A stretch of DNA of 64,000 nucleotides from Diphasiastrum complanatum (taxonomy: Eukaryota > Streptophyta > Lycopodiopsida > Lycopodiales > Lycopodiaceae): contig CM055096.1 of the NCBI GenBank assembly GCA_029204225.1, positions 45,479,346 to 45,543,345 on the forward strand, written 5' to 3'. The notes beneath the pieces are model-generated. The model saw nothing but the letters and a program-made list of their open reading frames with translations. It had not been told where the DNA came from and did not search any database. The translations under genes and the position numbers were made by a program. Within the stretch, counting starts at the first letter, position 1; every line of letters begins with the position of its first letter. This document shows positions 26,248 to 64,000 of this stretch, one piece after another.

Positions 26248-26727
26248 ATGGAGTTTGTGTGCGGTCATTGTTCGGCCCTAAGATGGAAAGCAGAAAGAAA
26301 TAGCTCTTTCTGTTGCATGAAAGGCAAGGTGTGTTTGCCTTTGATGCCATTATCGCCTCTTTATCTCCTTAATTTGTACACGACTTCTGATGACGTGGGA
26401 GCTCATTTTAGAAAACATGTTCAGAGTTATAATAACTCCTTGGCCTTTGCATCTCTTGGGGTGAATCTAGATAGATCCACTGCCAACTCTGTAGGCGGTG
26501 CGTATACATTTAGAGTGTCTGGCCGGTTGTATCATCATATTGGTGGTTTGTTGCCTTTAAATAGACCTTCATTTTTGCAAATCTACATCATGGATGGTGA
26601 TGATTTGAAATTAGATTAGAGATTATCTCTGAATCCCGATCTTAAACATGATGTTCTCTCCCTTTTGCAAAGCATGATGATGGATGTGAATCCATTTGCG
26701 CAATGTTTTAAGAATGTGTTGCTCGAA
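26248..26727 (+). pseudogene. Helitron_like_N domain
   Basis: The frame shows CGHCSALRWKAE, FCCMKGKVCLP, then FRKHVQSYNNSLAFASLGV and GGAYTFRVSGRLYHHIG, all in the order of the Helitron_like_N family, with the usual Cys pairs that probably bind zinc. A TAG follows at 26617-26619. The same frame then stays open to 26770 with PDLKHDVLSLLQ-type sequence before a frame change to the Rep part. Confidence 0.88.
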
Positions 26728-26729
26728 TC

Positions 26730-41518: not shown

Positions 41519-41626
41519 GTTAACTGTATCATCTGGAGCATCTGGATGAGAGAAGATGAAGTAGAAACTATAGAAATAAATATATATTCCTGCTGTTAAT
41601 TCGCATCAGCAGGGATAATTTTTCTC

Positions 41627-44600
41627 ATGGAATCATCGAGCTGCCATCGACAAAACTCTGCCCACTCTACCAACGTCAAAAGGGACTGGAAAAAACCATT
41701 ACTTTCAGGATGTGGTGGACACTCAGAGAAGCCCATGGTCGACAGACAACGCTCAACATCACGAGCTCTGAGGACAAGTTCGTCTTCGAAAAACATTCCT
41801 ATAGAAACTCCTCAAACTCTCCATCAATCAAGGGTTTCATGGAGCAAAGGATTGCTAGAACTCAAGGGATCATGCAGATCATGCAAAGGCGTGAGAACAC
41901 TTGAGGAGTTCAAGTTGAGTAAGAAAGCTTACCTCGCCATTTCTACTGAAAGGCAGATCACGCCAGTATCAAATACGAAGATACCCGAGATGATCCAGGA
42001 AAATATTTCTGGCCATCTCGAGAGTTTTTCCCAACAGGCTTGCCAAATATCGAAAAATGATCTGTTTTTACATAACGATAGGAGAGATGAAGCACTCGCG
42101 GCAAATCTCCCATTGCCAGCTGGACAAAACATGGCGATTCAAGTATACAATCCACACAACACAATTTCTCGCTCCCTTGCAGATCATAATGAACTGGCGG
42201 GGCAATCTCAAGAAGCCGTAGTTTTGGATCGGACAGTGATAGTCAGCTCATTGGAAAACTTTGAGGCAGTTCATCAAAATGCGTCTGATGGGAACTTTGA
42301 AGAAACTAGACCACTGCTAAGTGAAATGCAAGAAAACAAAAGGTTTGCAGGCTCTGGTTCTCATATGGGCAGGATGAACCCTGTCGGAACTGTACGAGAA
42401 GATAGATTGACAAGCGAGTACGGTACGCCGCCTATTGTATCTCATTCAGCAGAAATTAGTTTTCCAAGCAGTTTATCTTGTTCAGGGTCTTTAAACTTTG
42501 AGGATCGTTGGGAGGTTGGATCCTTGTCAGATGTGCAGTGTCTGTCAGACGATTCACAGACATGTAAGCGTGATTTATCCAGGATTCCTAACCAAGGTAC
42601 AGAAAATCAAAAGGTCTTACTGTGTGATGCTAGATATTTTCATCGTAAATCTACCCTTGTCAAGGATGAGCACACTCTTGTATCAGATAGCAGCTCCAAT
42701 CCTTCAAAAGCTCAATTTAACTACGTGACTACGCTTTTCCATGATGATCGAGTTAGAAGTAGTAAAAGAAATTTCGACTCTGAATCACATACTTCATATC
42801 AATCCAGAGCTTCAGTTGAGAGTTCACCCGCTGCGGTATTTCATTCTCCTGTTACAGACGCAGGCCGAAGATCTTTCCATACTGATCCAGGATCGAGACT
42901 TAGTCCTGAAATGTTTTGTAGTTGGTCGCCCGTAACAAGGAATCGGATGCTTCCATGTACTGACAGAATGGCATCTGGATTTGTGAGGAAAAGGATGATA
43001 CCTTATACTACTGGGTCAAAACGATGCAATTCTTGGCCTACTAGTCATGACGATGAAATGCTTGCTATAAGAGCCTCCAACAGAGGTGCTGTAAGGAAAT
43101 TGGACGACTCATTTGGGGAGTGCGGGTCTTCTTTGGGACTTCACAAATCTACCAAGGAATTAGATGAACATGCCGAGGTTGAAGCTGCAAGATTTGAAGG
43201 TTGTCCTTCTAGAAGCCCCATCAAAAGCTGGAAAACCTCTGCCGAGGAAATCCGCATGTCAGTTTTAGGATCTCGAGATTTATTTGAAGCTACAGAGTTT
43301 TCAGGTTATACCTCCTTGAAGGCAGTTAAATGTGCAGAAAAATCAATGATTTTGCAAGACAATTCCAAATCTCCTGTGCCTGTTAATTCATCACTCGATG
43401 TCACTTCTAGAAATGCTGCTAGTTCTCTAAAATGCCGCGACATGCTAGGAATCATGGCAGGGGATTTGAGTCCAATAAAGTTAATAGATCTAGACACTAT
43501 TGCAATCAGGAGTTTTCGGCAAGCTTCACAATACAGCTGCCCTTTGCCTGCTCTCAGACCACCCTTACATAATCTACTAAAATCGTTAACCCTTCCAACA
43601 AAAAGTGATTCAGCTGAACATGTTGGTTCATTTGGATTGGTGCATGGTCAATTGGAATGTATTCCGACGGAGGAAACTCTTAGTTTCAGATTTAGTGTTG
43701 CTAGCACTAAGGAGACTCTCATAGCAGAGACTTCCAAAGGTGCAAATGTTTCCAAAAAAGGAGCTGGCGCTCCATTGTTTACATTTTTTTCCTGGACTGA
43801 GAAAGCGAAGGAGAAGACAGGGTGGAAACAATGGGGCAAGAAACCAAGGCATTCTGTCAGCATCATAGGTGAAATGCAGGTCACTGCCGGAGGTAAATGT
43901 GAAGTTGATTGCCACGGTAAACCTTTGCTGCATTCAGAATTACAGTTTGTGCTACTAGGTGCGGCCTCAAATAAACCATCAAGCCATATCCTAGATGGAA
44001 AGAAATTTAACTCAGGCCATATGTCAACTGACCCTTCAGGATTTATTCCACAAAGTATTTCTTGCCCAAACTCCCCTGGACTTGGTTTTTCATCTCAAGG
44101 AGGTAATCTCCCTAAGGATTTATCAGTAAAAGATGTTTCTGGTGTACAAATCGACAATAAAGGTTTCAGGAGTCGGTCTCGTCGATCAGGATTGTCGAAG
44201 CCTGTTGGAAACCTATCTCGCCAACTCAGCCTTGAAAAATCAGGCAAGGACTGTGAGAATTTTGTCAAAGATGCTGTCGATGAGAAGGTTCAGGTTGACT
44301 TTGCTACACAACAAAAGACAGAGCTAGCAGCAATGGTCATTCGGCTACCTGCATATCCCAAATCCAGATGGTGTTGGGATATAAATTTCTTAAGGGAGGA
44401 TCCAAGAAGCGTAGGACTAAAAGATCTTCCCCAAAAGCTTGCTGTCTGCTCAGAAATGCTCTTTAGGGACGATTATCATCAGGAAAATATTTGCGAATTA
44501 AATTCCAGCAAAGCTGTGAATACCCATTGCAAGCGCGATCAGGTTGAATTTGAGAAGGGTCGTCAAGAATATCATTTGTCAAAGGTTTTGGAGTATGACC

Positions 44601-45330
44601 TGGTGCTAAGGGATTTGGAAAGATTTACAAGAGTAAATGATGAGTATGTCACGATCATTTTGCCAGCAGGTGAACATGGTTGCCCTACAATGGGATTGGA
44701 AGGCCCACCACCTTTGATTCAGCGATGGAAGTCTGATGGCAAATGTGATTGTGGCAGCTGGGACCTGGGTTGTGGTTTAGTCATCCTGAGTAACGAGCTG
44801 TCATGTAGATTAACAAAACCAATGCAAACGATAGATTCTCCTATGAAGCGTAATGGGGAGCAGAGTGGTCATGTGGAGGTGTTCATACAGGTGCTTCTCT
44901 CTATCCTTTGACTCTCTGGGCACATGTTGTTGAACGGAACTAAAGCAGATGAGTGCGGTTGTGCCCATGCAGATGAATGCGGTTGTGCTCATGTACTGTT
45001 TGATTTTCTTTTCAGGGAAGGAAACAGAAGGTGATTGCTATGAGTTTGTCGCATCTTCACGGCGGTCTGTTCTCTTTGAGTTTTCAAGAACCCATGTCAT
45101 CTTTACAGGCCTTTGGTGCAGCTGTTGCGATCGTTTACTCTAGATTGAAACATAATATATTGTCAAAGGATAAACACAAGTTTAAATCTGTGAAGCTGAA
45201 GCCACCAAGAGTTCCTTTGCGGACACTTGGAACCTCAAATTCAGTCATTGAAGCAAGTCCTAGGAGATACAAAGCATATTCTAGAGGCTGTCATCCAGAC
45301 CCGCCTCTAAATCCAGTAGACAGGGTTTAA
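41627..45330 (+). CDS. DUF3527 domain protein, two coding exons
   Basis: This is the best-preserved gene in the window: join(41627..44890, 45016..45330), 1192 codons. The intron has donor ACAG|GTGCTT and acceptor TTTTCAG and keeps phase 0. The start ATG gives MESSSCHRQNSAH. The first about 600 residues are Ser-rich, probably disordered, with many basic/SP motifs. The C-terminal half matches the plant-specific DUF3527 family: PLFTFFSWTEKAKEKTGWKQ, VSIIGEMQV, YVTIILPAGEHGCPTMG, SLIQRW-type LIQRWKSDGKCDCGSWDLGC, and across the intron junction a LSFQEPMSSLQAFGAAVAIV end. The biochemical role of DUF3527 proteins is not established; none is claimed here. No stop or frameshift interrupts it, unlike every other long gene in the window, which supports function in the host. 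Confidence 0.92.
44891..45015 (+). other. Coding intron of the DUF3527 gene
   Basis: A 125-bp GT-AG intron in phase 0. Removing it joins VFIQ to GRKQKVIAM and restores the family's conserved C-terminal block. Inside it a duplicated GCAGATGA(G/A)TGCGGTTGTGC occurs at about 44945-44990. Confidence 0.85.
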
Positions 45331-47065
45331 CGGTCAATCTGGTTGAAGAGGTTTCAATTTCTTCAACTTTCAACTGTTTAATGTTAGGCAAGAGCTAAGA
45401 CATTGTTAGAGATTCCATTGATTTATGCCAGCAGCCAAAATGTACATTAAATCAAGCATTGGATGCTATTGGAAATTTTACACGCTCTTGATGGGCTTTA
45501 TTTTAGCTGGAGCCTGCTGGATCAGTACAGCATGTAAACAATTTAATGAAACCTGTAAACTCATTTCTTATGAAGAGTCAAGAGCTAACCTTGAATTTCT
45601 GATTTCTGCAGACCACTAAAAAATGTGAATCTTTTGGATGTGCTACATTTGCTTGTTATAGTGAGCTTATATTGTTCCCATTTATTCATCTTAATTCTGC
45701 ATAAGGGTATGCTCAGAAGTTTCAGATGTCATTCATAACTATGCCCTTGCGCCGTCGCTACTGCAATTAATCTAGTGAGTACAAGAGAAAATGGTTTCTA
45801 AATTTTTTTGCACCAATTGAACTCTTCTGGATGGTTTTGTGAAAGGCTTACGCTATGCATAGCCACATTCTACAACCTGCATTTTCAAGCATAAAATTTA
45901 ATCTACCAATTATTTTCAAAATTTTAGCAAGCTATTGCTTAATATCCCATACATAATTTCTGTGAACTCAATATTTTGATTTGATTTTTGAAGATTTCAA
46001 TGAAAATTTCCATATGTTCTAAAGCACATATGTACTGTTGAATTATGGCTATACAAAGTGAATACTAGAAACTACTGTAACACATAAGCGACAGAAAGAG
46101 AAACAGAAATAGGGCCAGTAATAGAATGAATGATAAATTATGGACCAAGGCCACTAAAGAATATATAGCAGCAGTATTACTTTATCTAAAAATAAGTTTA
46201 CGAGATTAAACGTTTCACCTCTCTTTTGTTTGATGTCACGATACAAGAAATTGGTCACTGCGCTGTTCTAAACCACTGAAAATGAGAATCAAAGAACTCC
46301 ATCGACCTCTAGATTATGATCTGTCATCCCATTAGAGATTTTGCACGTTCAGGAGCTAGTGTCGATCTATAATATATACACCCAACTATAATTTGAATGC
46401 TCTAACCTTGAGGGAAATCAGCACTCTGAGAATCGAACAACCTGGTAACCAGCAGTCAGTTCCTACTTTCATGGAGCACTTGTAAGTGCCACTATTTGCA
46501 CTTTTAATTCGACAATAGTCTGTGCCAAGAAGTTGTGGATGAAACGTTTCTCATCGATAAGGGTACCATTAATGACAAGTGGGAGCTTTTGGTGAAGATA
46601 CAAGTTCGGTGGTGATGGCCAGAATATATGGGGCAACCCATCTTTTAAATATGGTAACTGGCAGGATGGCTATGAAAGAACATTAGCCTAGGTTTCACAT
46701 AGCAATGATCCATATTTAAAATTATGATGACTAGCTTTGAAAAAATAGTTGAAAACAGTATATTAAGGATTATTTTGACAAATCTTATTTTCTTTGAGTT
46801 GATGTAAATTCTTAAGACCTGGTTCAGCTCCAAATAAAAAGTACTCCATAGCACTCAATCCAGAATAGAGGTAAGAGATTATCATCTTTATGTAAGTAAC
46901 ACCCTAGTGCATTTATTCATAGAAAAAACTAGTAGGTACAGTGATGAAAAGGATACATACACCCCAAAGGGGAAGTTTATTCAAAAGTAAGCTCAAACAA
47001 GAGCGAAGTTTGCAATAAAGCTAAGATTAATCCAGATCCTTGCATTAAAAATAAAAGTGCATAAA
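45331..47065. other. 3' flank of the DUF3527 gene, no further gene
   Basis: The first few hundred bases probably hold the 3' UTR. Beyond that the sequence is AT-rich and without protein-like frames. Confidence 0.5.
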
Positions 47066-47590
47066 CTATGATGATGTCAGTGGGAGTCTGCCAACTGACT
47101 GCAGCAGATCAGAAAAGTGAAGAGGTGGCGAGTCGGCTAATGAAGGGAGATGAGATGTAGCAGACCCAGCCACCATCGCCCGTTGCAGGATTGATAGGGC
47201 TTGAGCACGTTGCAGGGCAATGGAAATACATTTATGTAACGGGTTAGTCTCAAGCATAGTTGTCCGTTTTGGAACGGAACACGTTCTATATATTTTTTTT
47301 AAAAAGGAATCAAGATTAAGGATTATATTTCAGATTACAGGTTCAGCAGATTGTGGTGGAGCATCTTCAGGTGGTAAGTGTCCAAATCTCAGTGATTTAA
47401 TGACTTCACAAATTACAATTTCATGGTGAGCTTTCAAAGAAAGCCTTCGAATTTGGGCTCCAGGAGTTTCATAAAGTACCCGCAGCATACCTAATTGAGT
47501 TTCCCTTAAGTACAAATGCAAGTAAGTATCTTGCAATTGCAGATGGCAATCTGGCACATCCCTTTCGAGAATGATGGCCGGTTCAATCAC
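47066..47590 (-). pseudogene. Possible two-exon remnant of an unknown gene
   Basis: Two minus-strand frames look more protein-like than their surroundings. The upstream one (47590-47330) contains DTYLHLYLRETQLGMLRVLY and IVICEVIKSLRFGHLPPEDA. The downstream one (about 47250-47066) contains NPLHKCISIALQRAQALSIL and ends at a stop. A donor-like CCT|GTAATCTG near 47344 and an acceptor-like ATGCTTGAG before ACTAACCCG near 47250 could join them. I do not recognise the product, there is no good start, and it could be a gene fragment captured by a repeat. Confidence 0.25.
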
Positions 47591-49164
47591 AAATGATCAG
47601 GTTATAGCAAATGAAAAGTTCATTGCCATATATTACTGACACTAGAATATTATCCGTGATTGTCCAAGAAATCTACTTTTTCCAAATAGAGTTTCAATTG
47701 CACTATCTTTCCTTGACAGTCGTCTTTAGTAATGTGGATGGTTCACGAAGGACAATGTAAAGATAATGTAATGAAGAACTCCAATAATGTTAGCTGTTCT
47801 GTCTTTCACTTTTGGAGAATAATAAATTCATCAACTTTTGCTCCTTTCCTGCTTCATTGATGCTAAGTTGTGGATGCGTTCTTAATATTGGTCTCAAATC
47901 GTCCTTCAATGTATTATCAAAAAGAAGGAAGATTGCGGCCAGCAGGTGGCAATCTAATACCTGTTTTTTAATTAAAAAAGAAGTTCCGACCCAGTACGTT
48001 CCAGCCCAAAAGGGTCGGAACGGGTTTCTAAGGATTTTACTGAGTCTAGCATCTCTTAAGATAGAATGGCATGTGTCAAATATATCTTTTCTCAACATCA
48101 GAACATTGCATTTTTGTCTGCTTAAAAAATTTGCATGCTCTTGAACGGCACTGCCTCAAAACTATACAGTTTCTCATCAGACACAAAGCAAACTATAATA
48201 ACGTTCGTTGATCGTATTTTAACTTAGATTTTCTGAAGGCTATATTTTAATATTAAGAAACAACTTGGTAAATATACCGTGTTTTGCAGTAGATAGCTTC
48301 TGCAATAATCCAAAACATCGTGTTTCAGCCATTGAACGCCAAAGATCACTCCGAAAATACCGAGTGAACATAACATAGTCGCATTTTTTAGTTGAATATT
48401 ATCAAATCACTTGACCTGAGAAAGACTACGTCTTACATCAATGTAGTGCAGTCTGTCAGGTGTCCCCAAAATGCCTTGACAGGCCATTCAGAAGAAGCAG
48501 CCCATTGTTTAACAGTACAGAATTCTATATTCCGACATTCTCAATGAAATATACTATTTGCTCAAGGCCTTTTATGTTTAAAATGGAAAAGCTTCTCCTG
48601 GCTGTAAGCCCGCATATAGTAAAAGTTAAGGTTTAAATTAAAAACTCTTGCTTTCGTAGAGGGCTGCGCGTTACCCCAAAAAGCTTTACTACAACCTAAG
48701 AAGCCTGCTAGCATGCTGGCAACCACACTCGGAAACGCTCAAAGCCTCCAGTAATGGGTCTTCATTATTGAATTCCCAAAAAGCAGATAGCTGTTGATGG
48801 ATCAACTTTTAGCCTTGGGATTGGGAGTAGCTTATCTTAAAAAGTTACAGGAAGTACTGCATTGTTTTGGTGAAGGTGTTTTAGCACTTTTTAGCAGCTT
48901 ATGCTTTTATATTTTATCGACCTGCACGATCTATCTATATTCTTGTAGTAAAGTAGGCCACGATCGAGGGGTGAAGCCACCATGGCTTACATGCTGTTGG
49001 TTTTTACCAAAGGCAATCCAAATACCCTATGTTTGTAATGAGCATTGTGCCGTGATGGAAGTACGTACTTACAATTACGGAGTAACTAATTGATGGATCA
49101 CGATAATGTAGTGGAAACACATTCATGATTCTTGTAAAGAACAAGTTACAAGCAGTGCCCACAT
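47591..49164. other. Spacer without a recognised gene
   Basis: Short frames only. The sequence GTTCC(G)A(C)CC...GGGTCGGAAC near 47985-48022 forms an imperfect inverted repeat. Confidence 0.4.
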
Positions 49165-49600
49165 GACAGAGATAATCTGAAAAGTCTCACAATCAACCAC
49201 TATTTTAAAATTTATTGGCTTAATCATGAAACATAGATCTGAAAAGTCTCCCAAACAACGCACTAATAATATAATTTACTGGCTAACATGGAATCTGTCT
49301 TGTGAGCAACCATTAATTTTAAATTTTTATAGAATCTGAAAAGTCTTACAAATAGCCACAAATTTTAGAATTAGTTGGCTACTCATGAAACATAGAAGTT
49401 GATGACAAGAATTAACTGGATAGAATTTAAAAAGTTTCACAAACAACCTGAGATCTTAAAATTATATGGGCTAATCATGAAACATCCAATTGAAATCTCT
49501 TAAGAACAACCATCAATTTTAGATTTCTCTAATAATCAAATCATGAATTGAGAATGTAAAAGGTCTTACAAACAACTAGTTTTAAAATTTATGGATTAAG
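49165..49600. repeat. Degenerate ~85-bp tandem array
   Basis: Five to six diverged copies of a unit with core TCTGAAAAGTCTCACAAACA, then ACCA.(T)AATTTTAAAATTTA and TTGGCTAATCATGAAACAT, run head-to-tail. Copy length varies between about 70 and 100 bp. The array is AT-rich and non-coding. Confidence 0.7.
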
Positions 49601-49869
49601 TATCAAATTAGCACAAATGCAATGTATCAAAATAGATCATAAATCCTAATAGGAGGAAATTTATCATGTGCTTTTCTCAATTGATTTTAACTCTGGTTAG
49701 CCTAATAATTCACCTTTGTAACTTACTAACAAGAGAAATTTGCTAAAGATTCTTGGGTAAGCTAGAGGGAATCAAACTCAAGGCCAAATGGTTAGTGGTG
49801 TCCTCAAAGCTTTAGCGTGGCCATGGCCCATATTTTGGTTTAGGATTCAAACTAGGGGTCTAGGATTTA

Positions 49870-50290
49870 TGTATAGGGAAAGACCTCCTTCAAGGGCAAA
49901 CCAATTTTTTTTTTCACATCGATTGGTTTTTCTCACAACATTATGCTCGTAAAGCCCATGAGCTAATGCCATGTGTCTCATCATCAAGAGAATTTTGAAA
50001 TTTAAAGTTCTTGGAATTACAAAGATTTAAACATTGAAGGTTTCTATGTACAAGGGGTAGCCCTCCCTCGAGGGCTTTCCGATTTTTGAGAGCTTGGACT
50101 TGAGGTTGTAGCCTGAGGACCCGAACTCTTAAAATTGGGCCTCTGCCTAAAAACTGAGCAATTTCCTTTCACATTGACTTGTTTTGTCGGGGCCATTACA
50201 CTCATCAACCCATGGGGCTTTATAGGTGTAATGTTCCATGTCTCACCATCAAGGGAATTTTGAGATCTAAAGTTTTTGAAAGTACAAATA
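49870..50290. repeat. Two-copy ~200-bp diverged duplication
   Basis: Two segments (about 49870-50030 and 50045-50290) share the order: C-rich AAGGGC/GAGGGC start, TTTCACAT.GA(C)TTG, CATTA(T/C).CTC(G/A)T, CCCATG(A/G)G, ATGT(G/C)TC(T)CA(T/C)CATCAAG.GAATTTTGA(A/G)AT.TAAAGTT, and end in TACAAA. Confidence 0.6.
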
Positions 50291-50819
50291 CAAATCATTG
50301 AATGTTCTTACGACTGAGATAACATCTAGTTACTTCAAGTCTTGGCCTCGTCTCAAATAATAGTTGCTCAAAATAAAAAACTCCTTACCATGGAATGTAA
50401 CTAGTTTCAATGTGCTTTATGATTGAAGCAATTGGAGGTTTGTTAGATAAGAATTCTATAGAAGGAAAATAACCACTTTCTTTTAAAAACCAAAGGAATT
50501 TGCGGCAAGAAATTTGGTTTAAAAAATATAACTAGAGGATTTGAAATACAATGATAACCGTTGTCATGTGAGCTCAAGATACATTTAAATGGTTAAAAAT
50601 TAAAAAATAAAATGATTGTGATTCAAGAAAAATAAAAAAACACATTTTAAAGCTCAAAATCACCTAAGAGTTACAACTCAACTTTTAGCAAATCGTCACA
50701 ATAGCTTACTGCTATAGCGACGAAGCTAACAAGGTGATCAAAGAAGGTCACGAGAGGCCCTAAATTACACCAAATTTTAGTGCCATAGTGTGTTGGATCT
50801 ACAAATCAAATGAATTTGA

Positions 50820-51015
50820 ATGTTTTGATTCATAAAGAAGTGCATCCAAAGAGTCGAGTTTTTGCAATAAAGTACTTAGCAATGTGGCAAAGTTTTTTGT
50901 GTGCATGTACCTTAGATTTTAAGACATTCACTTTAAAGGTCACATTTGCAAAAAATCTATTGACCAACTTGAACACGTAGTATTTCCTTTTACAAGACAA
51001 CGCCAAAAAGTAGAA
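50820..51015 (-). repeat. Dispersed repeat, left copy (coding-like)
   Basis: On the minus strand the frame contains KYYVFKLVNRFFANVTFKV and KKLCHIAKYFIAKTRLFGCT. A homologous copy in the same orientation lies at 62417-62620 (NYVLKLVNGVCAEVTIKV, then in another frame KK.(F/L)CHI...ART.). Both are broken. The source gene or element is not recognised. The two copies flank the 51.7-60.9 kb gene cluster. Confidence 0.6.
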
Positions 51016-51764
51016 CATTTGTACAAACTAACAATGTATATGTAGGGCTTGTAAGGCCTATGAGAAAGTTTTGATTGTTATGTCTAGTTGGGTATACATA
51101 GCTATTATATAGTGAGTTTTTGTTTGGAACTATTAGCATTACGAGATGATCCTGCAGGATTTGCATATGAGTGTAGTAGTTGCATGAAATTTTTTGTAAC
51201 AAGGGTTGTTGAATTTGGTAATTTTGTTTGGTAGTTAAAAACAAAAATATGTTGGATGGTGATACAACCAATATGTCTCAATTGTTGGTTCTATGCTTGT
51301 TATTTGAATTTCTAAGAAGCTGATGTTAAAATTTCACAATTCTAGCTTGACCAATTTTGGTCATATGGCTTGTAAATTGTATTATGGTCATGTTGTGGCT
51401 TGTCACATGTGACAAATAGCATAGGATACTCTTTGTAAGTCTCATTCCTAACCTAGCATAGGAGTGGCACCTTTGGAGTGAGTCCAAATAGTGCTTTGAT
51501 AAGCTAGAGAGAAAATAGGAGCTAAAAATAGCATGTTTTTCATTGTTTTGGGATCTCGAGATCTTGACCCCAAGTAAGGGTGGATCCAATGACCTATTAG
51601 GTTATATGTTAGGGCTAGGGTATGATAAGTTCAGAGGTGCCCTAATATGCTCAGATCTGAACTTGAAAAGTATAAATGTATGATGGGGTTTCCATCCAAA
51701 AATTAAGAAAAATCGAGTTTTTCCACTTCTATCATCATTGTCTTTTGGTGGCGAGTTCTAGCTA

Positions 51765-52971
51765 TTGGATGTGACCCACAAAGCAATATTGTCTCAATTT
51801 CTGTTTGTAATGAAAAAGACTCTGATGGCTCTTGGATACCACGTATCTATAGAAAATTTCACTGGGTTCTCATGCATCCCTCATCAAGAGGTGTTTTTGG
51901 TAGAAAGAGATAATCAAATATGGATTATAGGAATTTTTGGGAAGGTAGAATTTTAGACTTCAAAGTTTCACCCGGTGGTCATTCCATTTCAGAGGTCTTC
52001 ATTCAACATGTCTACATGCATAAAGAAATTAGAGTGGAAGTTCAAATGACAGACTCAAATGCAATTGTAAGTTTTGGAGAATTTTTTGCTTTGAGCTTTG
52101 CATTAATCATTTATACGTGTATCTGAGTATTTAGATGACATATAATTTTATGGATTTGTGCAGATTTGTATCCATCAAGCATAATCGACTGACAACCTAT
52201 ACAATCCCTTGTTGGCATCATGGACGTTATTCATTCTGATATTGGTCTTTTGCAATACAAGAACCGCTCCACGAGATCACTTTTGGATTCTTGTATTTTC
52301 TTCTATGATTCATTTTACACACCATCCAATTTAGGTGGAAAATTAGAGGCGATATCATTACCCTCTTTCTCAAGCGAAGAATGAATTCCTCCAGATTCCA
52401 CCATAGCAGAGAGCTTCCGATCAAGGTTTTTTATGGACATTCAAAACTGTATGAAATGTAGCACTGGTTCAAAAAACAATAGATTGCACTGGTTTTTGCC
52501 TATTGTAATATTTGTTGATTTTTTGTTAAATGTAATATTCGTAGAACAATGACAATGTTTATTTGTAGTGATTTAACAGACAATATGTTATCAAGCCTCC
52601 TTGATGATCATTGGGATAAAAAGAGTAATGGCAATATCGAGTGCATAGTTAATAGATCGTCAATGAAATTTAGATATCTTATAGAAAAACAAGTGCTTTC
52701 TTTAACATTTTATTATAGAAGATGGTCCAAAGTTGGCAATGGATGAAAAACATTGGATCAGGATTTTACAGTGAATCATCAAGATCAAATAGAAATCCAG
52801 GTGAGAAAAAATAATTCTACTCTTACAACAATTGAGGTGGAAGAAGATTGGACACTCGATCACATTCGATTAGAGCTTACATTGCTGCAATATGATATTC
52901 CTAAACACTTCTGTTTTCGAGTCAACGAGAGATTGGTAGGTGTATGTGTATTTATTTCAGTACACATTTGA
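51765..52971 (+). pseudogene. Decayed gene with a beta-grasp-like segment
   Basis: Several protein-like pieces in shifting frames suggest one decayed gene. Segment 1 (51810-51953) contains MALGYHVSIENFTGFS and QIWIIGIFGKVEF. Segment 2 (51920-52072) has SPGGHSISEVFIQHVYMHKE and meets an excellent splice donor (ATT|GTAAGT at 52071). The last segment (52753-52940) reads IEIQVRKNNSTLTTIEV, WTLDHIRLEL and FCFRVNERLV. That alternation of strands and a helix, ending before a donor-like GTAGGT, is what a ubiquitin-like (beta-grasp) domain would give, but I base this on pattern only. A TATA-like AGTATAAATG lies at about 51668. No family is named. Confidence 0.4.
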
Positions 52972-53389
52972 AATGACTTTCAATGATTTTATCTGAACAT
53001 GTTTCAGTGTTTTCGGTATTGCAATATTTCATTTAACATAATCTCAATGTTGATATTGTTTAACAAGTTTCTTTGATGTACATGTAAGACCAAGACAAGA
53101 AAGTTGCATAGAGTGCAAGGACTTAAATAGAAGCATAGAGATTGTTGAAACCGCATAAACATTGGGATGATAGACGAGCAACAACAATGTACTTTTTCAA
53201 AAAAAAAGGAATACAAAGAAGTCTCAAATGACTTCAAGATTTCATTGAGCAATTTGTATTTAGTATTTTAGAAAATGTACATTCGTGGCATTCAGTAATA
53301 GCCCACTTTCTATTTGCCTATCTATTGTTCTATGCATCATCATGTGATGATATATTTCTATGTGTCTGTCGGAACTTATGTGACAATAT

Positions 53390-54079
53390 TTACATTTCAA
53401 TTAAAGGTGCCTGAAGCATATCCTCGAGCACTGTAACCTCATCCACAGATCCCCTAGCAGGTTCATCCGAGGCACCTTCATGCTTGTAGGGCCTTGCACA
53501 CGATAGTAAAATTTCCAACATTTCATGCCGATACTGATGAATCACATTTGTTGATACCTCAGGACATTGGAACTGCAAGATAAAATATCAAGTGTATGTA
53601 TGTATTAGCCAATGTTTCAAAAAATATAAATTCACAAAGTTAACAATATATAATCAGGATATTGGAACATTGAAAAAAATACCTCACTGATACTAGCATC
53701 TGGAGGTTGCACCATATACCAATCCAAGAACGATTTAACATTCCAGATTGAATACCATTCGCAGCTGAAAGCATCGTCTTGTTGCGAAGACTGAAAAATC
53801 ACAGCAAAAACCTCCATGCCATCATGCAAATAAAAAACGTAATAAGATTCTTTTTACCTTTGCATCAACAACCTCTATGTTGGTATTTACAATTAGCCCA
53901 TCCGGCCTGGGCAATAGCTCCACCATCCTTTTGTACATGGATTTAACCATGGAATGGGTGGCATGCAAAGAATTCATTGTCATGCACACAGGTGTGCAGC
54001 TTCTAGTCGAATCCACTTTCATGGATATGACGTGCACACTCCAATGTTTGGAGAAGGACAAGCAATGGATTACTAGAAT
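53390..54079 (-). pseudogene. Ulp1/SENP-like cysteine protease segment (exons 2-4)
   Basis: These exons form the C-terminal half of a C48 peptidase fold. Exon 2 carries KHWSVHVISMK with the catalytic His. The position normally occupied by the catalytic Asp (about 20 residues on, before SL) reads MNSL, that is Asn. Exon 3 carries SSQQDDAFSCEWYSIWNV, with the oxyanion-hole Gln and the nucleophile Cys, but Ser and Glu replace the usual D before and G after the Cys. Exon 4 ends with EMLEILLSC and an acidic tail. C48 enzymes cut SUMO or similar modifiers from proteins. With Asn for Asp, activity is doubtful, though some thiol proteases work with Asn in that place. Confidence 0.7.
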
Positions 54080-54841
54080 CTATAAGAGTTTCCAAAAGAC
54101 AAATCTTACAGAAAACAAATATTACAAGAAGAAACTATCTTACTTTGAACAGTATGTGATGATGAACATTGATGCCTCCTTGCTAGTGTGCCTGAAGAGC
54201 CTTCTGGCTTTCCTCTCTTTATTCAACAGATGCCCAAAAAATGGAGATACAACAAAAATCTCCTTCGTGATTGTATATGTATATTTATGTACATAGTATG
54301 CACAAGCAGATTCAACTACTGTGTCTGAGATATATGAGGTCTTCTCTTTTAGCTCCCTACAATGCGGGTCTTTGATATGCATTGGAAAATTAATATCTTC
54401 TATACAAAACATAAACTCCCTTCTGAGATCTTCTATTTTCTTGGCTATATACAAGTCAAAATCAATGTACCTCTCAGAATCAAAAAATGTGTCTTTAGGT
54501 TTATTCGGAAGTTTGATGTGCAACTCTTTATCAGTTACATCAACAACAGAAACAATCATGTCCAGCACTGTATTTAGGTCATCCTCATGTATAGAAGGAG
54601 AACCGTGTAGTTGATGATCAGGGGTTAGGGGAGGACTCTCAACCAGTGGAATTGCGGACGTACTAGCCAGATCTTTTCTAATGGGAGGAGGTGAGGGTGA
54701 AGAGCTGGGAGACCTGGGCTTGGGTTGCGAACGCTTGGGATGTGCTTGCTTTCTCTTTTCGCGGGGTGGGACATGCCCCCTTTCAAGAGGAACTTGCCTC
54801 TGTGTGAATCCAGACTTAAAAATGCTGTCATAGGTGTTTCA

Positions 54842-55213
54842 AAGCCTCATGACAAGAAGCATGTCCTTGGGCATCAATGTCACCCTCTTGCCATGAATGG
54901 AGCACAACATCGAATCCTCAAACAATTTTGTCTGGAAGCCCTCGTATGTAGTATGGAGGGCCTCCAATGCAGTGATATTCCACCTCACTGCATAGGGCAG
55001 ATGGATGGTCATATCTTGTGTAACCTCCCTCACAGCCCGATAGAAGGCTGCTTTCGGGATCAAAAGTTTGGTGTTCCTCTGCAAGGCCCTGATGTCCCTT
55101 AACCATGGACGGTGAGGTCTTCCACGTCTTTGCGGATGTACAGGTTCAGATGTCTGGGGACGGGACGGTTGAACAAAACTGGTAAGCCTAGCGGTTTGCT
55201 TCGTCCGAGCCAT
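54842..55213 (-). CDS. Histone H3-like domain (CENH3-like), 124 codons to TGA
   Basis: Listed separately because this part is uninterrupted from ATG and could be made as a 124-residue protein if the TGA is real. The first eight residues after Met (ARTKQTAR) equal canonical H3, so H3 R2, K4 and R8 are kept, but position 9 is Leu instead of Lys and the tail lacks the K14, K27 and K36 contexts. The core has features of centromeric H3: a loop 1 four residues longer than H3, Trp after Arg before alpha2, and DSMLC...RVTLM in alpha3. It also keeps FEDSMLC(S)IH(G)KRVT and MPKD as in ordinary H3. The G-T-V-A stretch before alphaN is missing. It ends at the MRL where the usual RG-rich C-terminus would start. 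Confidence 0.85.
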
Positions 55214-55513
55214 TGAGGCCGGATATCTATACCATGCGAGGACAGAGACACAGCAGAAGAGACACTGAGAACTCTAAGGGTGATATCGCTACGACACGAG
55301 AGAGTGGCAGAGTCAGGCGGGGAGAGGCAGGGGCTTGCATGATGGTGATACTGGGAAAGTCAGACTGATATCGCTACGACGCGAGAGGGTGTAAGGAACA
55401 TTAATGGGGACGAGGTCGCTCGCGTGTTGGCGATATCACGAATGCAGGTCGTATGGAAGCAATCAAACGTGACAACAAATTACGTGAAAACCTGTACAAT
55501 CCCCGGGAATGGA

Positions 55514-55978
55514 CTTATATAGGGGAAAAAAATTGGCACGTGTGAATACCAGCGACACGTGGCCCAGTCAGTAGCTGAGATGTGGAACCACACGTCTGTA
55601 TACGCACGTGTGAAACTGCACGTCTGGATCAACTCGTGTGGGATCCCACGTGGGGACACATGGCTGAATGGATCAACGACATGTGTTCTCACATGTATAG
55701 GCTCGCACGTGTGGTCATGTGGCCCAATCAGTACCTGACATGTGGGAACACACTCCTGTATCTGCACGTGTGGCCACGCGGTCGAATGGTTTGGTGATGT
55801 GTATTCTGGCATGTGTTAGCTCGCACGTGTGGGCACGTGGCCGAATGACAGATTGACGCGTATTGTAGCATGTGTGGTCTCACACATGTGGACGATTGTA
55901 TTACGTGCCATAGATCTGATCCGCTGTTGGATCGACGAGTGTACAACTTGGATTTTATTGATTTTTAGCTATATAAAT
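55514..55978. promoter_or_regulatory. Divergent promoter with facing TATA boxes
   Basis: On the minus strand CCTATATAAG (55523-55514) lies about 305 bp before the H3-Ulp1 start codon. On the plus strand TATATAAAT (55970-55978) lies about 269 bp before the ATG at 56241. Between them is a CACGTG-rich tandem repeat. The near-equal leader lengths and the shared motif block indicate that the two genes are transcribed divergently from one regulatory region. Confidence 0.7.
55530..55895. repeat. CACGTG-rich ~60-bp tandem repeat
   Basis: About five or six diverged copies of a roughly 60-bp unit with the pattern CTCGCACGTGTGG, CACGTGGCC(G/C)AAT and ACATGTG. CACGTG occurs eight times (55537, 55556, 55605, 55647, 55706, 55765, 55824, 55834), plus several ACATGT variants. 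CACGTG is the plant G-box/E-box core bound by bZIP and bHLH factors. Confidence 0.85.
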
Positions 55979-56240
55979 GTTGTTTGATCAGTTAAAACAT
56001 TTCGCTAAGTTTTGGATTTTCACTCATTATAGCTCTCTGTGTGAACACTATTATTTCTTTGCAGTATTGCTACCACGTGCGAATCTTTCACAGATTCTAG
56101 ACGATCTAAGATCCCTCGTGTCATTCCGATATCAGCTGATTCACCAATATCACCATCACGCGAGGATTTCCTGATTGTCTTCTTACTCCTTGCCACCCCG
56201 CGTCGTAGCGATACTCGGCCCTACTGGTCATACTTTCGAG

Positions 56241-57751
56241 ATGGCTGCCTCATCCTCTAATACTTTTTGCACGCCTTCCTCATTGAATCCGGTGTTGGTA
56301 ACTACATAGGTCAGTATAAGACGTATTTCAATATGTCTTTTGATATTGAGAGGTTTGGATCAGAACATAAATCCTATCGTTGTATAAAGAGTATTATGAT
56401 AGTCTGAATCAGTCTATGTTGATAATGGATAGTCTATGATTCATCCATTTCCATGACCTAGTACTTGCCCAACCATCTTCAAAGCAAAGCCACAACCGAC
56501 GATTCACAAAAATTGTGAGTGATTTTAAACATGTGGTCCATTGTGACCAGCACAATCGATCATGTCGTTGTTTGTAGGAAGGCATGGGTTTGTGTTTTAT
56601 CTTTCTGCTCTTGTTCATGAGGAGGCAAGAACTTCGAGGCTTAACATTGAGGGTGACTCATCATCAACGGATTCTGTGATATCAGAGTCAGCTATTGTTG
56701 GTGACGCCTTGGGTGCTGACGAGGAGGCAAGATTGGCATCAATGTACGACCCAGCCGAGTCTCGTGCATTGTCCATTTCTTCCTTATCTGACATGAATCC
56801 ATATGACAAAACCAAGACTCTCCTCAATTTGCTAGTGTATTACATGAATAGTGTCACATACCTCTCACTGAATGATGTTGGAGATGTTCTTGATCTGAGA
56901 GGACAAAATATTATCAATTTTGTCTAATTTCATCAAAGAATTTGGGGACTTCATAGATCTCGATGGTGATGATGATCTACGTGCTTCTATTGATTACAAA
57001 GACGGAGATGAATGGATGGATGGAACTGAAGCACTGCAGTCAATCATGTCTGCAAGCAGGGCATACCAGGCAAATTTTCCTTGTGAGGAGAAATTTTTGA
57101 AAATTGGAGCAGATATGTGTCACAGTCTTCAGAAATTAGTCCATCCAGTGCTTCGACGACCATTGTTGCTGGTCATGATCTACATACTGTTGCACTTATT
57201 GAAGCTGATGAGCGTGATCTGGTAGGTAAATCTAGTTTTATCTTAATGAGATTTTTACTCAAAAATAGTTATTTTGTTTTTCAAGACATGTGACCTTTGC
57301 TCGTATTTTACAGGCTACTGTGGACGTGGATGCCTTTGCAACAAGGCAGTGATATTTGAGGGAAGGCCAGGGATCACGACAAAGGGATTCATCCCTGTCC
57401 AATTATTTGAAGTGCTTTGTAAATAAAGAGATTTGCATTCACCATAGCAAATTTTCTTCAGATGTTGCTACAATAATAATGGCAATTAAAGTGTTATCCT
57501 ATTTCTCGAACGGGCATAAATACCCTCCGAATACATATAAAATTATTTTTGCAAAGAGAGACATTGTCATAAAAGTATTTGGCTATGTAGCTGAGGAAGT
57601 TCCGAAAAGGTCTTCCTCCTTAGCTGTTTTTTCTGGATACATTGACTTGAGCAAAAGAAGATCGATTGATTTTCTAGATCCATATGATAGAAATTTTTTT
57701 CTTCATGACCACACAGCAAAGCTGATCATTAAAGACAAAGAGAAACAATGA
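56241..57751 (+). pseudogene. Divergent partner gene of unknown function (three exons)
   Basis: A first exon starts MAASSSNTFCTPSSLNPVL at 56241 and ends near 56297. Exon 2 runs from about 56578 (acceptor TTTGTAG) to 57225 (donor GGTAG|GTAAATC), and exon 3 from 57314 (acceptor TTTTACAG) to the TGA at 57751. Exon 2 is acidic and Ser-rich (SSSTDSVISES, LDGDDDLRAS). Exon 3 holds the best folded-looking part: CGRGCLCNKAVIFEGRPGIT then KGFIPVQLFEVL and, after a frame change, VATIIMAIKVLSYFSNG, YKIIFAKRDIVIKVFGYVAE and a Lys-rich end. Single-base frame changes at about 56930, 57085 and 57424 all fall at short homopolymers. I do not recognise the family. The shared promoter suggests a role together with the histone-protease gene. 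Confidence 0.5.
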
Positions 57752-57824
57752 TTTTGCCTTGCATTGTACTACAAATGATGCGATATAATACATATACTTT
57801 TTTCATCTGATATCATGAAAATTA

Positions 57825-60551
57825 CTATGGGTTGAGTCTTGCATCAATATTATTTTTGTCTATAAATTTGCACGCCTTTCTGAATTTCTGATTATTTGTT
57901 GATCTAGTATTATATCGGATTTGAATACGCCTGTAGAACCATCGAAATAGCTGGATGATGTAACTATTTTTTTTAGATGTTCCACCATGTTGTGTATTTC
58001 GATGAAATGCTGCTCCGGCTTGCCAATGCGATTTCTCTATTCCTTGTGATGACCAAATACTTAGACTGTCGTAAGCTTTTGCAAAAAATGATGCATGATG
58101 TCGTAAAATGTGCTGCAATATCAGAGATACAAATATTGTCATATTAACCATTTTAAATTTAGCATATGTGCAATGAGATTATCAATCGAAGAGTTAGTTA
58201 CATTGAAAAGATATTTACCATATAATGCGTAATATGATCTTCACCCCAGGCATCTTTAACTGCATCCACAAACTCAATTGTTGATTTCTCAATTAGTAGG
58301 ACATCAGTATCAGACAGTTTATCTTTTCTGAGCAATTTGACCATGTTGTCAAGCTTTGTCCAGACTTTAACTTTTTTAATCCTCGTTGTTCCTTTTTCTT
58401 CAAATCCTTTGTGGCATTGAGTACATCTATCCAAATTGAGTACTGGACTTTAGTTGGTTTTCCGGAATGATTTGATAAGAAACGACGAGCTTTGGATCCT
58501 CCTATACTTGGTTTGCATGGGATGTCTTCCATTTTTCCTGAAAGCTTCTCGTCCTTTTGTATTTTAACGTGTCCTTTATGAAGTCCTGCTTTTGATAAAA
58601 CTTCTTCCAATCGAGCTATTGCCTTTTTGGCTAATGACTCTGGCTTAGTATTCCAAGCAAACCAAATATGAAGGTATATCAATTTTTCGATAATTCTAAC
58701 CTCTCCATGTAGTGTACAAATGTGAACATTTTTTAGCGGAATCGGTAATACTGGTTTCCAAGTCGGATCTTCTATATCCCTTGAAACTCTCGTGCTCTTC
58801 GACATGTTATGTGTAGTTTCCATGCAATAGAGGCATGGATGTTTTGAATTTGCTCCATGTGAGACATTGAACATGCACTTCAACGACTTCAGGTCTCCAG
58901 TCAAATGCCATTCCACCTTAAAATCACCTATTCCAGGAACATTGAGTGGTGTATCGCTCATATGATTCGTAATTATTTTTGGATATGCTGTTTCACTAAA
59001 AATCTAGAATAGAATGTCATGATCTTCTTTTAAAACCTGTTTGAAACACAAAATCATGAACTATTTTAGGAGAATTGAACTCAGACCTATAATAACAAAA
59101 CAATATTAGCTTAAAACACAAAACCATTAATTCTCAAAATGAATTAGTTGCTAGTACTCAATAGAATAGATTTAAACCTGGAACGCTGCCAACCACCAGA
59201 TATTATTTTTGGACTGCACACTGAAATCAAGACTCTCCGAGTTTATCATATTGCTTAATGCTCCATTCATAAGTGTAACACTAACCCTTTCCAGCTTTTG
59301 TCCCTTTATTACCTCTGATTCATCTAACTTGAGAACTAATATCATCCTTTCAACACTTTCATTTGTGATTCCATAAAACTTTACAATAAATCTCAGTAAA
59401 TGATTCATATCTACAAACATATTGTTGGTAGAATCATATGACAAAGTGCCATGTTTTGAGTTATAAATTTTATTTATATGGTAAGGAATACCAATGATGT
59501 TTTGCAAACCCCTGTTTAACACATCCCTCTCTAATTTGATTTGAAAGGGCTGGGGAATAGGAAATTTTTTATATGTACTTTTCCAAATGCCTCTTTGATA
59601 ATTTTAAACATTGTGTCATATGCATCCCTGCTAATACCAGAATAATCACATGCTCCTTGTATCAATTTTCGGTCAATGATCTTGCCGACTTCGTCCATAA
59701 GGGCCTCTACAATCTTGGACTTGATTCGAGAATATTGTTGATTTCCAAGTAGACTCATCGTTGACTTGGTTGTAAGTACTGCACTCAAAGACTTTCCAAT
59801 CATGTCCTTGTCTTTCATATTTTCATTGGTGACTAAAGCTGATCTGCAAAATAAAAATAAGATTTAGAAAAAAAAACATTTCACAACCATTGAGTGCTAG
59901 ATGAAACAAAACACATGAATAGTTTAAAACATAATCTTACTTGAAAGCATATATTCTTTTTTTCCGTTGACCCCCACTTGTTGAAAGCTCATCAATACTT
60001 TTTAAAATAACTCTTTTTCACTTATTGTTTAGTATTTTCTTCCGTAATGTGTTTACTTCTACACTTATTTGACAATATGAGGTATGCAATGTTTGTACAA
60101 TTAGTTTCATATTGTCAGTTTCTTGGTTAAGGTTTAATATAATATCTTGCAAACTAGAATTATCTATCTTCAAGATTTCATTCTCTTCTTTTGTTTGCAA
60201 AAAAAGATTTTATTTTTCTCGGTAGTCAGTAAGCAAACCATTCAACATATTTTCCAAACAATGGATTTTTTTCATTGAATTACTAATGCCATAACTTTTC
60301 AATCTTTCACAATAACCCAATAGACCATTGTGTCCTTCACACAAAAACAGTATGAGTTGTGTGACCGATCTAAAATTTGGATGTTGCATTGAGCTTGGAT
60401 CGATTGGATACAAACTTCCATCAACCCATAGATCACAATGTTTCATGTCTTCCGTCCTTTGGTGAGCTGGTAAGGTGGATCCTTTCAGATTGTTTCTCGA
60501 CAGTGGAGCACATTCTGTGGGAAGATCAATATGGAGATGATATTTAGACAT
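57825..60551 (-). pseudogene. D-D-E transposase-like gene (four exons)
   Basis: Exons at 60551-59941, 59843-59178, 59036-58219 and 58112-57825 are joined by three GT-AG introns whose phases fit. The ATG at 60551 gives MSKYHLHIDLPTECAPL. Exon 1 ends in a coiled coil (NEILKIDNSSLQDIILNLNQ). Exon 2 carries VLKLDESEVIKGQKLERVSV, exon 3 WHLTGDLKSLKCMFNVSHGA with SKHPCLYC, exon 4 SSQGIEKSHWQAGAAFHRNT. Together these give D, D plus a CxxC, and E in the order of an RNase H-fold transposase; the GD(l/w)K.L......A....C.(Y/W)C and QG(I/F)EKSH patterns recall uncharacterised transposase-like proteins of animals, but I cannot name the superfamily. Breaks: frame changes near 60205, 59540 and 58400, TGA at 60020-60018 and TAG near 59005. 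Confidence 0.65.
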
Positions 60552-60649
60552 CTTAATAATCGATAGATTAATCTAGTAGAAAACCAACTTGTTATATATC
60601 TTGTAAGCTATTAAAACTCGTCTCAATTAAAAAACAAAAATTTAATTGG

Positions 60650-60853
60650 AAAAGTTTGAAATGACCTTGGTGCTCTTCTTGATCCATCACACTCCATTTT
60701 CTTGCTTTATATGCAAAATCAAAGCTTTGCAGTTATCAACAAAATAAGCAATTTTTTTTTTCAATAGATGTGTGTTGAAATTGCAAATTTTTGAACTACA
60801 AAAGTTTGACATAACCTTGCCGCTCCATTTGATCCAACACACTCCGTATTTTC
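60650..60853. repeat. Duplicated ~52-bp segment upstream of the transposase gene
   Basis: AAAAGTTTGA(A/C)AT(G/A)ACCTTG.(C/T)GCTC then TT.TTGATCCA(T/A)CACACTCC occurs at about 60650-60701 and 60800-60853. On the minus strand each could begin a short frame (…GVCWIKWSGKV / ECDGSRRAPRS). It lies within 100-300 bp upstream of the transposase start, so it may be part of its leader or an extra 5' exon (60908-60687). Confidence 0.65.
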
Positions 60854-60908
60854 TGAATTGCAAAAAATTAGATTCACGTTGTTGCTCATTGTGATCCAAA
60901 ATATTCAA

Positions 60909-62416
60909 AGTTTCTTGCCATGATTTTCAGATCGATAAGACTGTTTTCCTTTGATGTGAACGCTTTGAGTAGATGGAAAGAAAAGTTTGATGTGAAATAC
61001 GGTTTGCATTTACATGAGAAGTTATGTTAGTTAATGGCAGAAAATATAATCTTGAAGTATGGACCCCACACGTTGCAGCCCAACTTCCAGTTAACTACAT
61101 ACGTTACTAGTGAGGTCAAGTCACCGGAGTTGTGTGGGCAGACCAAAAACTCGGTCGGAGTTTTAAAATCCGACGATTTTCTCTCTCTTACGTGGCATTT
61201 CTTAGACAGCCCTTTTGGGCCTTGGAACTCCTCTAATGAATCATAGCAAGAAAGAAACTCACAAAATGCCAAGGCCACATGTGTGCTCAAGGCTCAAAGT
61301 CCTTAAATCACATGTTGTTGCTTGCAATATGAACGATCATCACACAACAGGCCGGATACATGAGAAACCAAAGCAGATTAGCAGTTCAAGTGGCATCGGC
61401 AATGCTCAGCCTACATTGGAATACAACCTTTACATAGCTAGTGATAATGACTACACACAATATACAAACTACTAAAGCATTGGCTTTCAAGAAATTCAAA
61501 AGCTTAAGAAAGTGGAAATACATGTTCATTGATAGGACACACCGCTACAATTATTAATGAGTGCATGATGCACCTTCGCAGACTACAAATGGTTGCTTCA
61601 TCCACCTTTCCACTTTCCACTTTCCAATTGTGTTGCTATGCAATGAATGAGGTTCTGAACAACATTTGTTGACTCTTAAATTACCCCGCCCACTTCAAAA
61701 TAGGCACCAAACTCTAAATCCAGCATTGCTATGTCTAATTCCCAATTCAAGCTCCAAATTAAGCATCGCCATGAATCTCAATTTGCATGCAAAGTATGAC
61801 ATGACATGTCTAACCCTGTACACAAATTTCTAACCAACATAAGGCATTTGCAAGTGCAAAGCATGCAAATTTCTAATCAAGCATCACCATTTCCAATTCC
61901 CAATCAAGATTTCAATTAAGGGATTGATTTTCTTTGCATGTGGATTTCTAACCCAGCAAGTATAACACATACATATTCTAACTCATGAAGCCATTTGCAA
62001 ATGCACACTACCCGCAAAACATGTGAAGAAAACTAAGAAATACAAAATTGCATATTCCAAACATTAAAAAAAATAGCAAAAACAACATTATGCTATAGAT
62101 TGTTGTGAGCAGGCCACATCGGCTTTTTTCAAACGATTGTGACTCTTGCTTTTGGAGTAGGGCCAAAAACATAAATGAAATAATTATGTGCATTGTGAAT
62201 GCAAATAGATAATCTTCACTAAACTATTGGTGTTAGCAATGATGTTGGTGCATCATGCATGTTGAGAGCCTAGGGATGCATGCAAGAACAAGATAAGGAC
62301 TCAAATTTCGTGTTATTTATGACTGGCATATTAAGGTGCATTTAAAGGGTGGGGCGCGCATGCGATAAAAAGAGAGGGACATGCATTTTTGCTATTAATG
62401 ACTTAAATATAGAGGT
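60909..62416. other. Right flank of the gene cluster, no gene recognised
   Basis: Upstream of the transposase gene the sequence is at first more G/C-rich (CTCGGTCGGAGTTTTAAAATCCGACG at about 61149-61174 contains a CGG/CCG inverted pair), then AT-rich. Around 61720-61930 short phrases such as GCATGCAAATTTCTAA and AATTCCCAA recur irregularly. No convincing coding frame. Confidence 0.4.
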
Positions 62417-62620
62417 TCATGAGACATCTAAAGAATCTAGTTCTTGGCATAAAGTCTTTATCAATGTGACAAAGCTTTTTTTGGGCACATAGCCATACAA
62501 TTTAAGCTTTAACTTTAATGGTGACTTCCGCACAAACTCCATTGACCAGCTTGAGCACATAGTTTTGCTTTTTTGCAAGGCAATGCCCAAAAAGAGCTTG
62601 AGCACAAGTTACAAGTGACA
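62417..62620 (-). repeat. Dispersed repeat, right copy (coding-like)
   Basis: Homologue of 50820-51015 in the same orientation, about 11.6 kb away. The minus strand carries KKQNYVLKLVNGVCAEVTIKV, a stop, and in the same sense KKAL/KKSF..CHI-like sequence. It too is broken by stops and a frame change. Confidence 0.6.
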
Positions 62621-62786
62621 AGTGACGAAGGGCCGAGGCAATGCTCAGGGAAATCGGCAAAGCATATTGAAACTGGCATGTTTTCTTAGAAACCAATATT
62701 ATAAGATTTCTAACGATTTTATGTGCCAGCATAACCCTTTTCTCTGCAATACTCTTCAAAAAATTGAGAAATTTTAAAAAATGCAT

Positions 62787-63285
62787 GTGTTTTTAGGATA
62801 ATGGCAAGGCCTAAAGCACCAATGCCCATGTGCAAAAATCCAAGCACACCCCGTGCAAATTGCAATCATCCAAAATACCCCGGAAATCGAAATTATGAGT
62901 TGCACGTTGGAGGGGAGTGGGCATGCCAGGCCCTGGCCCCGGCCCCAGGGCAAGCACGGTGGGAAGTGCTGATTCCATCCTGCCCAGTGATGGATCGTTG
63001 ATTGGGAGGAAAACAGAAGAATGCAGTTGCTTGGTTGGTTGCTAAATAACGGAGACAATCATTCACCATCACGCTCCTCAGTCATCATGCTTCTTCGTCT
63101 TCTTCTCCCACAATCCATACCATACTTTATGATCAATAATCAGCCCAGATAATCTACAGAAGAAACGGCAGGCCGCTTGGCGCAGCGTTCGAGGAGTGGG
63201 AACTTATACCACTAATTCTAGAAAAAAGAAATTTAGTTTCTAAGCACCTACTATCCTTCAAACCTCTTCCGTAAAAGGTCATACT
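62787..63285. other. Spacer with a tRNA A-box-like motif
   Basis: No gene recognised. At about 63173-63205 CGCTTGGCGCAGCGTTCGAGG combines TGGCGCAGCG, close to the tRNA A-box consensus TRGCNNAGYGG, with GTTCGAGG, but the two are too close for a tRNA or a complete SINE promoter. Confidence 0.3.
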
Positions 63286-63392
63286 ACAAAATTTGTAGAG
63301 TCACCTTTCTAGCTTTTCTTTCTGATTTTTACATAGCGTACAAAATTTGTAGAGTCACCTTTCTAGTTTTTCTTTCTGATTTTTACATAGCT
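63286..63392. repeat. 53-bp tandem duplication
   Basis: TACAAAATTTGTAGAGTCAC followed by TTTCTAG(C/T)TTTTCTTTCTGA and TTTTTACATAGC is repeated twice in direct tandem with two or three substitutions. CTACAAAATTTGTAG within it is nearly palindromic. Confidence 0.85.
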
Positions 63393-63477
63393 TACTCCAT
63401 GCAACATGAACCGCATTGCAATATGCACAAAATCATTGCCTTTCAATTTATATTTGTACATGGCTTACTCACATTTG

Positions 63478-63528
<51 letters not shown>
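63478..63528. repeat. (CT)n microsatellite
   Basis: About 25 CT units. Frames across it (63399-63770 and 63465-63668) owe their length to this repeat and show no known domain. Confidence 0.95.
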
Positions 63529-63530
<2 letters not shown>

Positions 63531-64000
63531 ATGTGGATTCCTAGATGCAATATGAACCCAAATTTTGGACTCACCTTTAGGAAGGTTTGTGCAAAAACAA
63601 AATTCATCGAAGAAATAAAAAAACTTCAAAAGAACCTTTCGAAATGTTTGTCTAGAAACAAAACTCATCCAAAAAAGAATCTAAAAGAAGACTTTGAAAG
63701 ATCTCACGTGAAGGGAGGAGGGCCTTTCCTTTTAACCCTTTCGTCGAATGAGGTGAACAACCTCGGGTGATTACCCTTGAACCTTTGAACTCACTAGGCA
63801 AGAGGATTTGAGAACATCACCACCTCATCTTCTCCCCGTAAAAAGAAAAAATGCCAAATGTTTTTTTCCCCTATATCTTGGAAAAACATATAGAAACAAA
63901 ATTTATGCATTGCTTTGCAACCATTTACACCGGGCACCAAAACTCTCATGTGGACAACCAATTGACTCCTTAGCATGAAACTTCTGAAAATGTGTTCATG
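63529..64000. other. Right end of the window, no gene recognised
   Basis: A Lys-rich plus-strand frame (to 63770) lacks recognisable domains. Nothing else is seen. Confidence 0.4.

Follow-up and report, generated by a model that had tools for sequence, protein, structure and literature searches.

Results and Discussion

Layout of the locus

The window, by which we mean the whole 64,000-nt stretch of Diphasiastrum complanatum DNA analyzed here, carries a decayed gene on its minus strand, from 55213 to 53390, in which a histone fold leads, without a change of frame, into a protease-like region. The first 124 codons (54842..55213) encode an H3-like histone fold with the tail MARTKQTAR, recognized by Pfam, by PDB matches, and by a relative (P0009) that is 90% identical over this part. 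An in-frame TGA (54839..54841) then stands about five codons short of the usual H3 end. Beyond it, the frame stays open for 232 codons (54140..54838), encoding a linker rich in Pro and Ser and then, by alignment with SENP/Ulp1 proteases, what appears to be the N-terminal part of a Ulp1-like domain (YISDTVV). The longest frame in 200 first-order Markov resamplings of 50500-61000 was 205 codons.

The remainder of the gene lies in three further exons on the same strand. Exon 2 (53858..54047, or with a start at 54072) contains HWSVHVI, with the His, and NS at the Asp column of the alignment. Exon 3 (53683..53790), delimited by GT-AG introns on either side and marked by its motif QQDDAFSC, supplies the oxyanion Gln and the Cys, and exon 4 (53390..53572) supplies the C-terminal region and a stop. 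Introns 2 (53857-53791) and 3 (53682-53573) both have GT-AG boundaries, and their removal links the flanking frames without introducing a stop. GC content is 0.24-0.32 in the introns and 0.41-0.51 in the exons. The weak spot of the gene model is intron 1, placed approximately at 54048..54147 from its GC content of 0.30 and an enumeration of junctions: a good-looking donor, GTAAGA, lacks any frame-keeping AG, and 12 other GT/GC-AG pairs preserve the frame, the nearest of which (GT-AG, 54150-54073) has a weak donor.

This layout agrees with the original prediction, which had been made from the sequence alone: an H3 fold, one TGA, continuation in the same frame, and exons containing KHWSVHVIS and QDDAFSC are all borne out by the sequence, the Pfam search, and the frames. 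Only the length of the open run, given there as 231 codons, needed correction.

The histone half

The H3 part is certainly a core histone. It scored 82.6 bits against the Pfam Histone profile (cut-off 26.4, E = 3.5e-23) and matched H3 and CENP-A-type chains in the PDB at about 1e-20. Its tail, ARTKQTAR, preserves K4, and the next lysine comes only at residue 49, in the window copy and in P0009 alike; H3 has eight lysines within its first 45 residues. Since the tail has no lysine between K4 and residue 49, K9, K14, K27, and K36 are absent. The histone fold, the MARTK start, and a loop 1 longer than that of H3 are shared with plant CENH3 and other H3 variants, from which this gene differs in its frame that continues downstream and in the loss of all tail lysines except K4.

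Loop 1 has four more residues than that of H3.1 and is CENH3-like in length. LIP and the DSMLC...RVTLM stretch also resemble A. thaliana CENH3. These features would fit a host gene, namely a duplicated H3 variant of CENH3-like type that became fused to a Ulp1 gene independently of any transposon and is now a pseudogene. Overall identity does not single out CENH3, however: measured against reference sequences, it reaches 47% for A. thaliana CENH3 and 46% for H3, with 43% for maize CENH3 and 42% for CENP-A. Two H3-like proteins that lack the extended loop score higher (P0010, 51.6%; P0011, 50.5%). The placement at centromeres that the original prediction had offered as one option can therefore draw on the length of loop 1, but not on identity, which is about equal for H3 and CENH3.

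Its other option, placement on nucleosomes, fared unevenly at sites of our own choosing. The H3 residue is retained at 9 of 12 DNA-contact positions and 7 of 10 positions at the H3-H3 interface, but in the core at only 12 of 25; L100Q, V101T, and M90E are among the core changes, some of which bring in polar or charged residues. On these counts, entry of the H3 half into nucleosomes is plausible but not assured. An AlphaFold2 model built on six alignment rows places four helices in histone-like order, although the model is poor (pLDDT 44.9).

The TGA and a relative without it

A protein search with the H3 core gave 11 candidates, 5 of them at E <= 1e-10; with so few candidates, canonical H3 and CENH3 were hardly sampled. 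Among them was P0009, the 137-aa D. complanatum protein O6H91_14G014700. It differs from the window copy at 13 of 124 residues in the H3 part. Among these differences, three (L50, F93, and L103) leave the H3-like residue in the window copy and one (S47) leaves it in P0009. P0009 has Gln at the position of the TGA and then continues in frame with NTYDSIFKFGFT, and 11 of 12 residues there match the window. It stops 12 residues beyond the TGA position.

By its sequence, then, the frame in another copy ran on beyond the histone. As P0009 reads Gln and continues where the window has TGA, the stop is most likely a lesion private to the window copy. A two-gene arrangement, with an H3 gene that ends at the TGA and a protease-like neighbor that has its own start, would account for the position of the TGA, some five codons ahead of where H3 normally stops, and for the annotation of P0009 as a protein of only 137 aa. 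It does not account for the absence of a stop at that position in P0009, the same frame onward with near-identical residues, or the open frame that begins straight after the TGA in the window, and we regard it as improbable.

The idea that one gene joins both domains thus gains from P0009 a frame that passes the end of H3 without the TGA. P0009 ends too soon to display an intact fusion, and none was seen elsewhere: the window holds no second copy of the gene, and a search with the whole read-through protein gave eight matches at E <= 1e-3 among 4,705 candidates, all to the H3 part only. A copy free of the TGA was found as an annotated relative and not in the window.

The Ulp1-like half

The downstream part presents its motifs in the order of the Ulp1/SENP proteases (Peptidase C48): YISDxVV (for WLNDxVI), HWSVHVI, NS (for DS), and QQx5C, with the same Gln-Cys spacing. 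It departs from them by Asn in place of Asp, as originally predicted, by Ser-Cys-Glu in place of Asp-Cys-Gly, and by a divergence too great for Pfam. The motif pattern, which we composed after the alignment had been seen, was present in 5/5 reference SENP/Ulp1 sequences (SENP8 with the second Gln only) and in 0/300,000 shuffles, 0/100,000 chimeras of other window frames, and 0/13 fetched proteins. Against a profile of five SENP/Ulp1 sequences, the downstream part scored 8.2 bits in the expected register, covering only the stretch up to the His motif and not the Cys; this score was reached by 2/2,000 shuffles and 1/3,000 chimeras of other window frames. The hhalign probability of the Ulp1 half against the SENP/Ulp1 profile was 0.8%.

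Database searches gave the protease no such support. Pfam returned no match to C48 or any other family at E <= 10 for the joined part and none at E <= 1 for the pieces, a negative that is limited by the HMMER filters, which discard most weak matches. The PDB returned no C48 match, its one match, at E 1.1, being unrelated, and no protein homologue of this half appeared at E <= 10 among 622 candidates. Of the two domains named at the outset, profile searches thus recovered the core histone and not Peptidase_C48.

These silent databases, together with the low profile score and hhalign probability, are what would be expected if the H3 part were real and the downstream frame encoded some unrelated domain. 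The order and spacing of the motifs, including QQx5C and HWSVHVI, speak against such a domain, to which we assign little likelihood. We take the downstream part to be a putative, divergent Ulp1 that carries Asn at the Asp position and Glu directly behind the Cys, an identity that the ordered motifs and the weak profile score favor and that Pfam, the PDB, and the protein search leave without backing. With these two substitutions, the first of them at the catalytic Asp, this half may be inactive. The original prediction had proposed a module that removes SUMO or, with the Asn, binds it; judged from the residues, catalysis is uncertain, and the window copy is broken.

Surroundings and a possible mobile element

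Upstream of the H3 start lies a divergent noncoding region (55214..56240) with degenerate 59-nt-spaced repeats, a cluster of CACGTG, and a mirrored TATCGCTACGACGCG motif. The repeats comprise four copies spaced 59 nt that are 61-73% alike; they are absent from the output of Tandem Repeats Finder. Seven of the 16 CACGTG copies in the window fall within 371 bp, against 0.09 expected, in a stretch that was picked after the repeats had been seen. A 15-nt motif is mirrored toward both gene starts; it is the mirrored core of a 21-nt promoter motif with two occurrences in the window, both on the plus strand.

On the far side of this region, a second decayed gene of unknown kind runs in the divergent orientation (56241..57751, plus strand; frames with stops, start codon assumed), without a Pfam match above cut-off. 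It is followed on the minus strand by a decayed gene at 58198..60572 whose motifs LDESE, GDLKSL, and CLYC we take to be transposase-like, and whose product presumably resembles transposon proteins of Hydra, sponges, and Rhizophagus. This gene has two stops in its first stretch, and Pfam, including its transposase families, gave no match above cut-off. A scan for terminal inverted repeats between 44950-53400 and 57760-64000, run without a shuffle control, turned up short pairs whose target duplications do not exceed 3 nt, and no convincing element ends.

On the other side, several open stretches at 51707-52971 (plus strand) may belong to another decayed gene, in tail-to-tail orientation to the H3-Ulp1 gene; four stretches tested there had no Pfam match. 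A ubiquitin-like reading of 52747-52971 (plus strand) was dropped, as it had no Pfam match. Farther away, the window contains a Helitron at 26712-29794 (plus strand; matches to Helitron_like_N and PIF1 helicase), two direct-repeat pairs, each repeat about 830 bp long, that are probably LTRs (16430-17263 and 20363-21195, 97.7% identical; 2009-2832 and 7442-8252, 90.2% identical), a remnant of a Copia-type reverse transcriptase (RVT_2) at 9433-10143 (plus strand), and a 1,103-codon open frame with DUF3527 at 41600-44911 (plus strand) that is likely a host gene.

The missing element ends are in keeping with a fused host gene, as is the status of P0009 as a named protein from a gene model on a 52 Mb contig. 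Set against this are the decayed transposase-like and other genes that adjoin, the divergent intergenic region rich in repeats, and the Ulp1 domains that one study reports in MULEs of several flowering plants (PMC13317346). On balance, we consider a transposon-independent host fusion unlikely, though it deserves more weight than either the two-gene or the unrelated-domain reading.

The explanation that we tentatively prefer, without claiming for it an even chance, is that the locus is a broken copy of a single gene whose product combined a divergent H3 with a SUMO protease of Ulp1 type, and that a clubmoss mobile element most likely carried this gene as an accessory. It is a degraded but real gene, and its layout was not found elsewhere in our searches.

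Comparison with known systems

Neither the protein searches nor the literature searched, which comprised open-licence papers, revealed a histone fold joined to a Ulp1 domain or a described H3-Ulp1 protein; the original prediction that no plant protein with this layout has been described holds within that literature. A pattern scan of viral contigs gave two matches, neither related. Long H3-containing proteins do exist (P0001-P0008) and resemble the present gene in having an H3 fold inside a longer open frame. They differ from it in that Pfam finds a protease in 0/8 of them and that seven have the H3 fold at or close to the C-terminus, whereas one (P0007) has it close to the N-terminus. Among the long proteins with the fold near the C-terminus are P0001, P0002, and P0005; P0001 and P0002 are alike along their full length and have a long loop 1. 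Two from Haematococcus lacustris (P0003, P0006) carry an H3 variant with an internal MARTK behind a long non-histone part and may be gene-model fusions.

The closest parallel in layout comes from Arabidopsis. There, VANDAL elements encode VANC proteins that bind short motifs arranged in tandem repeats and that lift silencing (PMC5735166, PMC13317346, PMC10398659), their targets are tandem repeats in noncoding regions, and some VANC genes (VANC/Kaonashi) include a Ulp1 domain (PMC13317346, PMC5735166). The Kaonashi/VANDAL elements (KIU), which are non-TIR MULEs, are multi-gene elements in which a Ulp1-type domain is fused to a partner that acts on chromatin. Here the partner is an H3 fold, DUF1985 was not found, no MULE transposase is recognized, and the source is a lycophyte. 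Pfam found no DUF1985/VANC domain in the downstream frame or exons, a negative of limited sensitivity because the C48 part escapes that search as well. As DUF1985 was not found, we do not place the H3-Ulp1 gene in the VANC family. If the element context holds, it is a variant of the Ulp1 accessory genes of transposon type.

A possible anti-silencing role

From these neighbors and this parallel, we infer a mobile-element context and an anti-silencing role: an old mobile element may have used the H3-Ulp1 gene to resist silencing. On the model of VANC, the product would be an element-borne factor that acts through both of its halves. The H3 half would pair with H4 and enter nucleosomes at the element, perhaps aimed there by the CACGTG-rich repeats. 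Since K4 is present and K9 and K27 are absent, such nucleosomes would be unable to carry the usual H3 silencing marks (K9/K27 methylation) on that subunit. The Ulp1 half would bind or remove SUMO on silencing factors at the element, and both halves together would have sustained expression of the element for as long as the gene stayed intact.

In its fullest form, this proposal holds that an H3 variant was captured by the element, deprived of all its tail lysines except K4, and joined to a SUMO protease, so that the element gained silencing-proof nucleosomes along with the removal of SUMO from silencing factors. We offer this sequence of events as a speculation that is probably wrong in at least some part. 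A sharp, testable prediction follows from the absence of K9 and K27 beside a retained K4. The VANC proteins, which are the known anti-silencing proteins of plant transposons, act through DNA motifs; if the proposal is true, histone-based anti-silencing would mean that an element was able to alter the nucleosome itself.
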